DNA of 64,000 nt from Arachis hypogaea (lineage: Eukaryota > Streptophyta > Magnoliopsida > Fabales > Fabaceae): positions 31,191,942-31,255,941 of the forward strand of contig NC_092054.1 of NCBI RefSeq assembly GCF_003086295.3, given 5' to 3'. This document shows positions 19,511 through 23,881 of the stretch, piece by piece (within the stretch, counting starts at the first letter, position 1; every line of letters starts with the position of its first letter). The notes beneath the pieces were generated by a model. The model saw only the letters and a program-made list of their open reading frames with translations, was not told the origin of the DNA and did not search any database. The translations under genes and the position numbers were made by a program.

Positions 19511-19707
19511 TGTAACAGCCCAGACCACCCGCTAGCACGATATTGTCCGCTTTAGCACACAAGGCCTCACGATTTTGCCTTTGATGATAGGGATGATGGC
19601 CAAAGCCCCCCACACTCACTCGTCAAAACGCGTCATGCTAGGGAGAGGTATCCACACCCTTATAAGGCATGCTTCGTTCCCCTCTCCAACCGATGTGGGC
19701 CTTTACA
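19511..19707 (-). mobile_element. TRIM LTR (197 bp), left
   Basis: Runs from TGTAACAGCCCAGACC to GATGTGGGCCTTTACA, with inverted TGTAA/TTACA ends. Its partner is at 23685-23881. By eye I find four differences in 197 positions, all transitions. With the 69-bp internal region next to it this is the layout of a terminal-repeat retrotransposon in miniature. Confidence 0.85.
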
Positions 19708-19776
19708 ATCCACCCCCCTAAGGGAGTCCAGCGCCCTCGCTGGCACATCGATCTGGGTTCTGGCTCTGATACCATC
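19708..19776 (-). mobile_element. TRIM internal region: primer site and polypurine tract
   Basis: On the minus strand TGGTATCAGAGCCAG (19774-19760) is a 15-base match to the 3' end of plant initiator tRNA-Met. About 40 bases later TAGGGGGGTGGAT (19720-19708) is a polypurine tract directly against the LTR. There is no coding capacity, as expected for a TRIM. At 19771-19779 the sequence ACAGATGGT is shared with the integrase frame it is fused to. Confidence 0.8.
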
Positions 19777-22700
19777 TGTTTGAGGATGGTAAGCTGTACT
19801 CAAGCTTAATCGGGTTCCAAAAGCTTTCTGAAATGCACCCCAGAATCTCGAAGTGAAACGAGGATCTCTATCAGAGATTATAGTAGCAGGTACACCATGA
19901 AGTCTCACAATTTCCTTTATGTATAACCGTGCTAGATCCTCAAGGGTGTAAGTCATCCGAATGGGCAAAAAGTGAGCTGACTTCGTCAGTCAGTCCACAA
20001 TCACCCAGATAGCATCAAAACCAGTCCTAGTCCTTGGCAATCCCGACACAAAGTCCATTGCAATACTTTCCCATTTCCATTGCGGAACCTCTAAAGGTTG
20101 CAACATCCCGGAAGGTCTTTGATGTTCAATCTTTACCTTTTGACAAGTTAAGCACTTTGAAATATATTCCGCCACATCATTCTTCATACCCGGCCACCAA
20201 AACATCGCCTTTAAATCATGGTACATCTTAGTACTTCCCGGGTGAATGGAGAATCCGCTTTTGTGTGCCTCCTTTAAGATATCTTGCCTCAAAGTGCCAA
20301 CATCCGGCACAATGATCCTACCCTTGAATCTCCATAACCCGTCTTTTTCTTCCGACATTCTCCACTGCTTTCCTTGCTCGATAGCCGGTAACACCTTCCA
20401 TAACACTTCATCATTTTCATGAGCCTTTAGGAGTTCGGACTTAAAGTCACTTGAGATTTCTAATCGGCTCAAACACAAGGTTCCAGATACTTCTCGAGCA
20501 CCAATTTTTAGACTCTCGAATCCCTTGAGCAACTTTTCCTCCTGAAGCATCATCCAAGACGCATACAACGACTTCCGACTTAACGCATCCGCCACTATAT
20601 TCACCTTTCCAGGATGGTAATTTAACTCAAAGTCGTAGTCTTTCAACAATTCCATCCACCTCCTTTGCCTCATATTAAGCTCTTTCTGATCAAAGAGGTA
20701 TTTCAAGCTCTTGTGATCGGAGAAGACTTGGAACTTAACCCCATAGAGATAATGCCTCCACACCTTCAAGGCAAACACAACCGTAGCGAGTTCCAGATCG
20801 TGCGTAGGGTAACTAACTTCATGAGGTCTCAACTGTCGTGAGGCATACGCCACCACATTATGATGCTGCATCAGCACGCATCCTATACCCTTTAATGAGG
20901 CATCACAGTACACCTCAAAAGGCTCGTTTGGCTCAGGTAACACTAACACAAGTGCAGTGGTCAACTTTTTCTTCAATGTCTGAAAGCTCTCCTCGCACTC
21001 AGGAGTCCAAACAAAAGGAGTGTCTTTGCGGGTTAACTTTGTCAACGGCAAGGTTAATTGCGAAAAGCCCTTGATGAACCTTCGGTAATAGCCAGCTAAA
21101 CCCAGAAAACTCCTTATCTCAGTTACTGTGGTTGGTTGCTTCCAATCCATCACAGCCTCCACCTTAGTTGGATCTACGGCTATTCCCTTCTTACTCACCA
21201 CGTGACCCAAAAACTTCACCTCACTCTTCCAGAACTCACACTTAGACAGTTTCGCATAGAGTTTCTTCTCCTATAGAATCTGCAATACGGTCCTCAAGTG
21301 TTCCGCATGCTCTTCTTCAGTTTTGGAATAAATTAGTATGTCGTCAATGAAGACAACAACAAATTTATCCAGAAACGGACGGAAAACTCTATTCATGTAA
21401 TCCATGAATACCGCAGGAGCGTTCGTCAATCCAAAGGACATTACAGTGTACTTGTAATGACCATAACGAGTTCTGAAAGCGGTCTTAGGGATATCCTCAC
21501 CCCTCACCCTTATCTGGTGATAACCGGATCGCAAATCAATCTTAGAGAAAACCCCAGCTCCTTGTAACTGATCCATGAGATCATCAATCCTCGGCAATGG
21601 GTACTTATTCTTTATGGTGACCTTGTTCAGCTGCCTGTAATCCACACAGAGCCGCATACTTCTATCTTTCTTCTTTACTAGTAACACTGGAGCACCCCAC
21701 GGGGAAACACTTGGTCGGATAAAGTTCTTACCCAACAATTCCTCTAACTGAGACTTTAGCTCGGCCATCTCTAACGGTGACATCCTATAAGGAGCACTTG
21801 AGATTGGTCCCGCCCCAGGCACCAACTCAATAGCAAACTCGACCTCTCAGTTAGGTGGAAATTCCTCAATATCATCGGAAAACACTTCCAGAAACTCACA
21901 CACTACCGGAATCTGATCCAACCTTTGATCATCACCCGAAACACCCGCGGTTAACAACAGGATACCCTGACATTCGATTCCAGAACAGTTCACCATCATC
22001 GAATTCAAGTAATAATTATTCACCACGACCGGCCCTTCTGTATCTTCTCCGGCATAAAGTACACCGACTTTGTAGAGCAATCAAGCAGGACATGGTTTTC
22101 GGATAACCAGTCCAATCCCAAGATAAGATCAAGACCGATAATCGGTAAGCAGATTAAATTATGGACAAAATTACGCTGCTTGAACCTAAACGAAACTTTC
22201 GGGCATCCTAGCCTAGTTACCATGGCTTCATGGGTAGCATTATACACTTTTAAGTCATAACCTAAGGTTACGATCTTCAATCCTAACTCATGGGCTTTCT
22301 CAAATGCAATGAATGAATGCGATGCTCCCGAATCAAATAAAGCATTTAAAGTTTGACCAGCCATTTCACAGTTACCTCGAATGAGTGTCTCAGATCCTTC
22401 TGCACCCACAGCTGAGGTGGTGAACACCCGACCAGTCTGTTGTGCTTTTCCAGCACCTTGCTTTTGCTTCTCCAGACAACTTGCGGCTTTATGCCCCGCC
22501 TTTCCACAATTGTAGCACAAACCCCATCCGGCCTGGCATAGTACTCCCGGATGGTGACTCCCACACCTAGTACAAGCTTGATCATTTTGAGGCTGCTTCC
22601 CAAACCTTTTCCCTTGGGAGTTGTTGTTGTTGGGCCTCCTAAAAGAACCTCCCCTCTTAAAAGGTGGACCTCTAGGTGCAAAGCTCTTCCCTCGGTTCTG

Positions 22701-23468
22701 TGGGAATGATCTTTTGTGACTTCCTTTCTCAACGGCTGCCCTCTTCATGCACTCTTCAGCAACCCTACACTTGTTCACCAATTCGGAGAAAGTCCTAATC
22801 TCCATTGGCCCCACTGAACCGAAAATATCACTTCGGAGTCCTCCTTCGTACTTAACACACTTCCATTCCTCATATTCCACCGGAGTCCCTTGACACATAC
22901 GAGAGAATCTGAACAGCTCCTCAAACTTATCAGTATACTCAGATACGGACATAGTACCCTGCTTCAGCTACAACAATTCAAGCTCCTTGGCCATCCTAGC
23001 AGAAGTCGGAAAGTACTTCTTATAGAACTCCTCTTGGAAGACATCCCAGGTGATATAATCATCACCCTGCTGCAGAAGGCGTCGGATACCCTGCCACCAA
23101 TGCGACGCTTCACCAGTGAGAAAATAGGTAGCGAACTCCACACGCTGCCCTTCAGGTACCACCTGCGCTTGCAGTGCTCGTTCCATAGCCTGAAACCACG
23201 TATCGGCTTCAGTCGGGCTAGTAGTTCCCTTGAACTTCGGTGGATTAACCTTCAAAAAGTTTGCCAGTGTCATCGGGCCTTGAACTCCACCTCCATCATT
23301 ACCATGGTTGTTCATCTGTTGACCAAGAGCCTCAGTAGTGGCTTGCATAGCAGCAGCCATGTTCTCCAACGGAGTCATAAAGTTCACCGGATCATTAGGG
23401 TTAGTCTCCGGCACACGAGCATTCGTATGTCCTCTCCCACGACCTCTACCGCATCCACGAGGCGCCAT
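19771..23468 (-). pseudogene. Tekay-type chromovirus gag-pol, broken, cut before the integrase glutamate
   Basis: Reading right to left: gag starts at 23468 (MAPRGCGRGRGRGH). An in-frame TAG, where the family has CAG, stops it near 22968. The frame resumes with the rest of gag, a CCHC knuckle CYNCGKAGHKAASC (about 22520-22478) and the protease motif LFDSGASHS (about 22345). A frameshift lies near 22050, a TGA at 21847 and a stop at 21268. RT spans 21825-21150 with FIDDILIYSK at about 21350, then RNase H (YCDASLKGIG to DALSRKS), then the integrase zinc region and catalytic aspartates (MDFVSGLP, SDRDPRF). The frame leaves the element right after STAYHPQTDG. The catalytic glutamate should follow within a few codons but is missing. 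Beyond that point the reading enters TRIM sequence. At least four lesions make it inactive. Confidence 0.9.
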
Positions 23469-23670
23469 CTGGTTCCTATACACACCAAACAATCGATATT
23501 AAGTTGATCAGTCTCAATATCGGAAGTTTAGTGCTTCAAAGTCCCAAATGCATGCTCATGAACATTTATGCCAATTATATCAAGCAGATATACTAACAGC
23601 ACATAACACACATACAGAGAATGCACAGAAGCATAGTCAGTCCATTCCTCAGGCTCTACAGGAACGAACT

Positions 23671-23684
23671 GCTCTGATACCATC
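23671..23684 (-). other. Primer-binding site (tRNA-iMet type) at TRIM/Tekay junction
   Basis: Minus strand TGGTATCAGAGC (23682-23671) is common to TRIM and Tekay leaders. To its right (upstream in element sense) lies the TRIM LTR, and to its left the Tekay leader AGTTCGTTCCTGTAGAGCC, which also occurs after the primer site at 47126. The switch between elements therefore falls inside the primer site. Confidence 0.8.
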
Positions 23685-23881
23685 TGTAACAGCCCAGACC
23701 ACCCGCTAGCACGATATTGTCCGCTTTGGCACACAAGGCCTCACGGTTTTGCCTTTGACGATAGGGATGATGGCCAAAGCCCCCCACACTCACTCGTCAA
23801 AACGCATCATGCTAGGGAGAGGTATCCACACCCTTATAAGGCATGCTTCGTTCCCCTCTCCAACCGATGTGGGCCTTTACA
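23685..23881 (-). mobile_element. TRIM LTR (197 bp), right
   Basis: Partner of 19511-19707. It is followed at 23882 by ACCATAA, the decayed start of a Tekay primer region (ACCAAAA in the plus-strand Tekay), then by the Tekay LTR. So this LTR sits between a Tekay LTR and a Tekay leader. Confidence 0.85.

Follow-up and report, generated by a model that had tools for sequence, protein, structure and literature searches.

Tandemly arrayed terminal-repeat retrotransposons in miniature (TRIMs) and tandem long terminal repeat (LTR) retrotransposons have both been described (PMC4717578, PMC11899658), as have Cassandra arrays (PMC7215508), and Tekay elements are enriched among the rice tandems (PMC11899658). 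In these papers, the origin of tandem arrays is given as recombination or retrotransposition without being resolved, and which element mobilises a given TRIM is also stated as open (PMC4717578, PMC11899658). Our literature search, in which most subscription journals were not covered, returned arrays within families and template-switch chimeras and, in the text accessible to it, no mixed chains of TRIM and Tekay. Here, we analyse such a mixture in Arachis hypogaea. In 64,000 nucleotides of contig NC_092054.1 (forward-strand positions 31,191,942 to 31,255,941; this whole stretch is the window, numbered from its first letter), a Tekay-type gag-pol unit lies between two TRIM LTRs, and related joints recur across the genome, some of them in chains bounded by 5-bp target duplications. 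We put at roughly one in two the probability that TRIM and Tekay complementary DNAs (cDNAs) were joined at a common tRNA primer site, with strand transfer inside mixed particles as the probable route, and that the window copy is a rearranged member of the resulting family.

Two 197-bp TRIM LTRs (LTR1 and LTR2) enclose 3.9 kb of Tekay-type gag-pol. They align over 197/197 bp with 97.97% identity (4/197 sites differ), and at either outer joint the LTR end is exact. The alignment and the Pfam matches bear out an earlier note on this DNA, made from the letters alone, which had described a TRIM/Tekay chimera of this form. The chimera sits inside a broken Athila-like element, X. Its parts, and the joints between them, are as follows.

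18229-31062, minus strand: host element X, Athila-like; left LTR remnant 18229-19510, right LTR 28958-31062, primer site 28937-28951
19511-19707, minus strand: TRIM LTR1 (outer, the TRIM 3' end), with an extra A (TGTAAAGG)
19708-19775, minus strand: TRIM internal region, with primer site and polypurine tract (PPT)
19771-19779, minus strand: joint J3, ACAGATGGT, common to Tekay integrase codons and the TRIM LTR/primer junction
19780-23670, minus strand: Tekay-type leader, gag, protease (PR), reverse transcriptase (RT), RNase H (RH) and integrase (INT) up to HPQTDG
23671-23684, minus strand: joint J2, GATGGTATCAGAGC, TRIM LTR2 to Tekay leader
23685-23881, minus strand: TRIM LTR2, with the same extra A as LTR1
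23882-23888, minus strand: joint J1, TTATGGT, with which the Tekay primer site starts, directly next to TRIM LTR2
23889-27406, minus strand: Tekay LTR, complete, with 94.9% full-length identity to a copy on C18
27407-28190, minus strand: Tekay integrase C-terminus (SH3_Tf2-1) and PPT
28188-28191, minus strand: joint J4, where Tekay integrase meets the gag-like region of X through 3-5 bp of microhomology (CCA/CCAAA)
28191-28957, minus strand: remaining X, gag-like part to LTR

Read along the minus strand, the X gag-like region is followed by the Tekay integrase C-terminus with its PPT (28190-27407), the Tekay LTR (27406-23889), TTATGGT (23888-23882) and LTR2 (23881-23685); GA and TGGTATCAGAGC then lead into the Tekay leader and coding region (about 23670-19780), and ATCAGAGCC into the TRIM internal region (to 19708), LTR1 (19707-19511) and the X LTR (19510-18229). 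The gag-pol between the TRIM LTRs and the Tekay pieces to the right of LTR2 are one and the same Tekay unit, with one LTR, circularly permuted and lacking 17 nt. The native integrase reads AAACAGATGGTCAA in the 13 other Tekay copies returned as loci (CAAACAGATGGTCAATCTGAGAGGACGATCCAAACCC in L014, small variants in the 12 others), and the window Tekay resumes at CCAAACCC, 17 nt past the break. None of these 13 copies is a close donor (95.0-96.8% identity in the first part, 93.8-96.7% in the C-terminal part).

The native TRIM has LTRs of 196-197 bp and a 68-bp internal region with a primer-binding site (PBS) and a PPT, in line with the definition of a TRIM (short LTRs, primer site and PPT, lack of coding capacity, and many copies flanked by 5-bp target duplications). 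Native copies carry a 196-bp LTR and then GATGGTATCAGAGCC; TGTTACAGATGGTATCAGAGCC is present in most of them (47 exact), the others being mutated or having host sequence after the LTR. In the window TRIM, the primer-site copy lies at 19774-19763 (minus strand). Runs made up only of TRIM have exact target duplications in 13/26 cases, and the remainder include cut, mutated or continuing runs. The Tekay-type unit matches, in order, the Pfam families gag, RVP_2, RVT_1, RT_RNaseH, Integrase_H2C2 and rve (the last below its cut-off, at 21.6 of 32.6 bits), with SH3_Tf2-1 in the displaced C-terminus. Its gene order (gag, PR, RT, RH, INT) makes it a Ty3-gypsy element. The lineage name Tekay is the label of the earlier note; the criteria for this lineage are a C-terminal chromodomain, for which the unit gave no Pfam match even at E up to 10, and placement of the RT in the Tekay clade. 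The longest exact word common to the TRIM and Tekay units is the primer site, at 13 nt. A 29-base TRIM LTR pattern had no match in one scan each of genome_contigs and viral_contigs, as expected for a plant element. Among the best TRIM LTR matches listed (40 of 1290 candidates scored), 98/99 fall on C11-C20 and one on C3, a possible bias to one subgenome.

The earlier note also placed both crossovers at the TRIM primer site, through short homologies, and J2 and J3 agree with this: at J3, the parents share the 9 nt ACAGATGGT. It further proposed a search for other copies with these joints; one of the two joints proved to recur and the other did not. The J2-type joint (TRIM LTR, PBS, Tekay leader) occurs in the genome at 8 exact sites (window locus included), 5 with one mismatch, 7 with two and 51 with three, 42/51 of the last carrying another LTR end (GGGTCGTTACAAATGG). 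A reversed-pattern control gave 0 sites. In every J2-type locus read (8 exact, 4/5 one-mismatch; 12/12), a TRIM LTR precedes and a Tekay leader follows the primer site, and in 3/12 (L064, L066, L068) a Tekay LTR lies directly upstream of the TRIM unit(s). With up to 3 mismatches allowed, the genome holds no second copy of the integrase-to-primer-site joint J3; for J1 there is likewise none, with one pattern at up to 3 mismatches and another at up to 2.

The mirror joint (LTR end-TTA-PBS-TRIM internal) is found at 33 exact, 20 one-mismatch and 12 two-mismatch sites, with 0 for its control. All of the mirror-joint loci read (10/10) continue into TRIM internal region and LTR, and 6/10, two of them duplicates of one locus, have the LTR type of the window Tekay directly upstream. 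On C15 (52282149-52289558), a Tekay in which pol, integrase end and LTR are contiguous runs into a TRIM internal-LTR unit and from there into a Tekay leader. A further pattern, LTR-PBS not followed by C, whose last letter code excluded the commonest Tekay type, returned 77 sites: 61 TRIM-internal variants, 10 Tekay-type and 6 others. Tekay is thus the main partner of the TRIM, though perhaps not the only one.

The six sites with neither TRIM internal region nor Tekay leader after the TRIM LTR-PBS (C12:65826631, C13:15665832, C13:15666099, C14:68374152, C15:95045174 and C16:96109483) may hold other partners, or be rearrangements. At C15:52288984-52289103 (L060 6985-7104), a 120-bp Tekay leader in inverted orientation separates a TRIM array from Tekay pol. 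In the TRIM arrays L032, L045, L055 and L056, LTRs are joined directly with two to five bases between them (GAT, GATAT, GAAT), resembling unprocessed cDNA ends; those keeping GA (L032, L045, L055 twice, L056) may be end-joined cDNA, and a microhomology deletion of an internal unit could also yield the GAT ones. At C18:95143475 (L075), no match was obtained where the 3' part of the Tekay should lie, and the expected Tekay LTR start of L076 was not found (L084).

Pairing J2-type with mirror joints located chains bounded by TRIM LTRs. Seven were tried, and the 6 with both ends readable all have perfect 5-bp target duplications, as the earlier note had asked of a mobile chimeric family.

C11 65066711/65059637: TRIM-bounded chain, duplication TCTAT
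C16 12045532/12035776: TRIM-bounded chain, duplication GATCC
C15 126784835/126775245: TRIM-bounded chain, duplication TCCAC
C20 12846438 to about 12863995: TRIM-bounded chain, duplication CATGG
C19 20948677-20949356: TRIM-bounded chain, duplication CGTAT
C12 6383097-6390012: TRIM-bounded chain, duplication CAAAT (a near-identical copy 20.7 kb away is not counted separately)
C14 63902472/63894940: TRIM-bounded chain, ends unreadable (3' LTR broken, array running on at the 5' end)

The reverse arrangement, in which a Tekay-bounded element carries a TRIM unit at its primer site, also has duplications (TTGAT and CCATA, 2/2 tried). The Tekay partners in the C11 and C16 chains are more distant relatives (gag 80% and 68%). 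Within the 17.5-kb mixed chain on C20, a TRIM internal match ends after 47 bp, and the next Tekay leader begins only after roughly 1 kb without any match (C20:12854508-12855509, L074).

Both window TRIM LTRs begin TGTAAAGGCC, with one extra A. The exact 22-mer carrying it occurs at 2 places in the 2.56-Gb genome, both in the window LTRs; this pattern is free of locus-choice bias and blind to copies with another change in the 22 bases. Likewise, the extra A is present in 2/103 readable TRIM LTR starts, both of them in the window (the 101 controls come from the loci best matching LTR1 and include near-duplicates such as L043/L044). Because the extra A occurs only in these two LTRs, they probably derive from one reverse-transcription event. 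LTR similarity alone says little for this pair, which has 4 differences against a mean of 4.0 for pairs among 21 other TRIM LTRs. Set beside the X LTRs (34/1282), the 4/197 differences make it possible that the chimera inserted after X, the numbers being small.

Element X has a target duplication, TGGCT, at 18224-18228 and 31063-31067, with an empty site near 6092-6097 in the window, and its LTR pieces share 1248 identical positions with 34 mismatches and 1 gap over 1283 columns. Its right LTR is uninterrupted at 30238/30239, where LTR1 breaks the left one, and the gag-like region of X, in 5/5 other copies returned as loci (40 of 1334 candidates scored), continues differently past J4. X therefore lost most of its interior and 823 bp of one LTR. 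The names Athila, tRNA-Asp primer and initiator-tRNA primer serve as provisional labels. Two 8.3-kb stretches of the window (6733-15032 and 35356-43629), 93% alike and in the same orientation, represent another large repeated element.

How could such joints form? Reverse transcription uses the primer site to move plus-strand DNA between template ends. In a mixed particle, plus-strand DNA ending in an LTR and a primer-site copy could pair with the minus strand of another element, giving LTR-A/PBS/internal-B. The resulting chains would consist of TRIM units (PBS-internal-LTR) and Tekay units (PBS-gag-pol-LTR) linked at the PBS. The regularity of the joints, their GA spacer and the target duplications would all follow from such pairing between two cDNAs. 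Since the partners lack LTR homology, and share no long word apart from the 13-nt primer site, the mixed joints cannot stem from crossing-over between LTRs. If joining does take place in mixed particles, a Tekay-lineage element is the likely helper that packages and copies the TRIM. The wider proposal, that a Tekay-lineage Ty3-gypsy element is the TRIM helper, that cDNAs sharing a particle are spliced via the tRNA primer site and integrate as chains, and that the same hopping builds tandem TRIM arrays across plants, we hold more tentatively, at somewhat less than even odds.

As part of the cDNA-joining account, and as likely as that account itself, the window copy is best explained as a defective member of the mixed-chain family. 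Here, TRIM LTR2-PBS-Tekay gag-pol would have switched early, at ACAGATGGT in the integrase, to TRIM internal-LTR1. LTR1 ends cleanly within the Athila-like LTR, as if inserted by integrase, and the remaining Tekay (integrase end, PPT and LTR), attached to LTR2, would have been end-joined to X with a large deletion and no target duplication. One-ended integration of retroviral DNA with host deletions is known (PMC5041404), and such integration, with host joining of the other end, fits the exact LTR1 end, the deletion in X and the missing duplication. Primer-site remnants at LTR ends are also known (PMC2797772), and TTATGGT next to LTR2 may be compared with them. The flanks of the window copy do differ, with GTGCC in the Athila-like LTR of X on one side and ACCAT on the other. 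The earlier note had read this mismatch as favouring a DNA-level route; in fact, ACCAT is not host DNA but forms the beginning of the Tekay primer site. The right flank being more of the same Tekay, unequal flanks alone do not favour that route.

The earlier note's choice between a chimeric cDNA and DNA-level recombination is only partly narrowed: the extra A points to one reverse transcription, while circle recombination at the primer site gives similar structures and keeps duplications. In that alternative, the main rival though one that we consider rather unlikely, a Tekay (or TRIM) circle with one LTR and a TRIM (or Tekay) resident in the chromosome recombine through their 13-bp primer sites, the duplications are those of the resident, and further deletions later affected the window copy. 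This would yield L-PBS-Tekay-LTR-PBS-internal-L with the TRIM's own duplication; the window Tekay is itself circularly permuted with one LTR, and circles with a single LTR have been described for LTR elements of plants (PMC9324142). However, both joint types would be expected equally, yet the mirror joint is commoner (53 vs 13 at up to 1 mismatch, though 4/10 mirror loci read have other or unmatched upstream sequence). In addition, 13 bp is short for homologous recombination. Our initial reading, since demoted, was of two independent nested TRIM insertions and a deletion at the window locus alone: one insertion in the Athila-like LTR and one in the Tekay primer site (duplication ATGGT), its inner part lost through the 13-bp repeat, together with microhomology deletions. 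The exact outer LTR ends, the ATGGT on both sides of LTR2 and the extra G observed, which is exactly what deletion between two primer sites would leave, speak for it. Yet with the extra A confined to these two LTRs, independent insertion is unlikely, gene conversion apart; the two Tekay ends would have come to be 17 nt apart by chance; and the LTR-PBS-leader joint recurs where no such stack is required. We regard this reading as improbable. We give equally little credit to the window locus being the remnant of a longer array (Tekay-TRIM-Tekay-TRIM), grown by unequal crossing-over and trimmed by three deletions. Mixed chains of such a kind exist, and all TRIM LTRs of the proposed array would carry the extra A, but two Tekay breakpoints only 17 nt apart in the unit go unexplained. 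Finally, an assembly artefact could be suspected from J1 and J3 being found once each; it is scarcely credible, given that joints of the J2 type and of the mirror type are present at dozens of sites and that target duplications match at several of them.

Several observations weigh against joining by strand transfer. Recombination of circles at the PBS would be expected to give chains and duplications just like these; J1 and J3 occur at the window locus only; 4/10 mirror-joint loci lack the window Tekay's LTR type directly upstream; and non-Tekay continuations after LTR-PBS number 6 against 10 Tekay-type (with a pattern that missed the commonest Tekay type). The chains are known from their joints and ends, with the middle read in a minority of them, and some of the joint sites were examined. 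Strand transfer between cDNAs would also lead one to expect the outer LTRs of a chain to be its closest pair. They are in the C20 chain (2 differences vs 3 and 3) and are second-closest of 21 pairs in the C12 chain. On C15, the outer LTRs differ from each other by 17 mismatches and 13 gaps, whereas one outer-inner pair differs by 11 mismatches and 3 gaps, and the rule fails in 4/4 all-TRIM arrays with at least 4 LTRs. These failures may reflect later crossing-over or a different origin.

Heterologous primer-site joints record which RNAs were copied together. The helper of a TRIM and the origin of tandem arrays become testable by joint-type counts in any assembled plant genome. Loci of this kind can be mistaken for autonomous TRIM partners and, if the wider proposal is true, TRIM-bounded gag-pol elements, sometimes taken as TRIM ancestors, could be captures instead. 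In soybean, autonomous and non-autonomous partners have reportedly exchanged LTRs; there, a non-autonomous element recombined with its helper through homologous LTRs, whereas the TRIM/Tekay joint is heterologous and at the primer site. Tandem TRIM and LTR arrays (PMC4717578, PMC11899658, PMC7215508) resemble our mixed chains in that LTR and internal units share LTRs, some with target duplications. However, they alternate within one family (the criterion for tandem LTR retrotransposons in PMC11899658), whereas here two families without LTR homology alternate, with joints at the primer site. The Triticeae template-switch complexes, VejuL and BARE2 (PMC1950507, PMC13317346), are chimeras of RNAs packaged together, recognised as such from their target duplications and the similarity of their outer LTRs; the complexes of PMC1950507 are a precedent for our reading. 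By the measures of PMC1950507, the shared extra A points to the outer LTRs of the window copy being products of one reverse transcription; matching duplications around the whole are absent from the window copy and present at 6/6 readable other loci. Those complexes switch in the R region or LTR, in contrast to the primer site here. Closest in layout is rice OsajLTRA10 (PMC4717578), in which TRIM LTRs surround coding sequence and a duplicated 25-bp stretch ending TGGTATCAGAGCC stands on both sides of the breakpoint, like L-PBS-Tekay-PBS-internal-L. It is a Ty1-copia element, read in that paper as an ancestor from which the TRIM arose by deletion, whereas the unit here is Ty3-gypsy; and, unlike OsajLTRA10, the captured unit in the TRIM/Tekay chains keeps its own LTR end.

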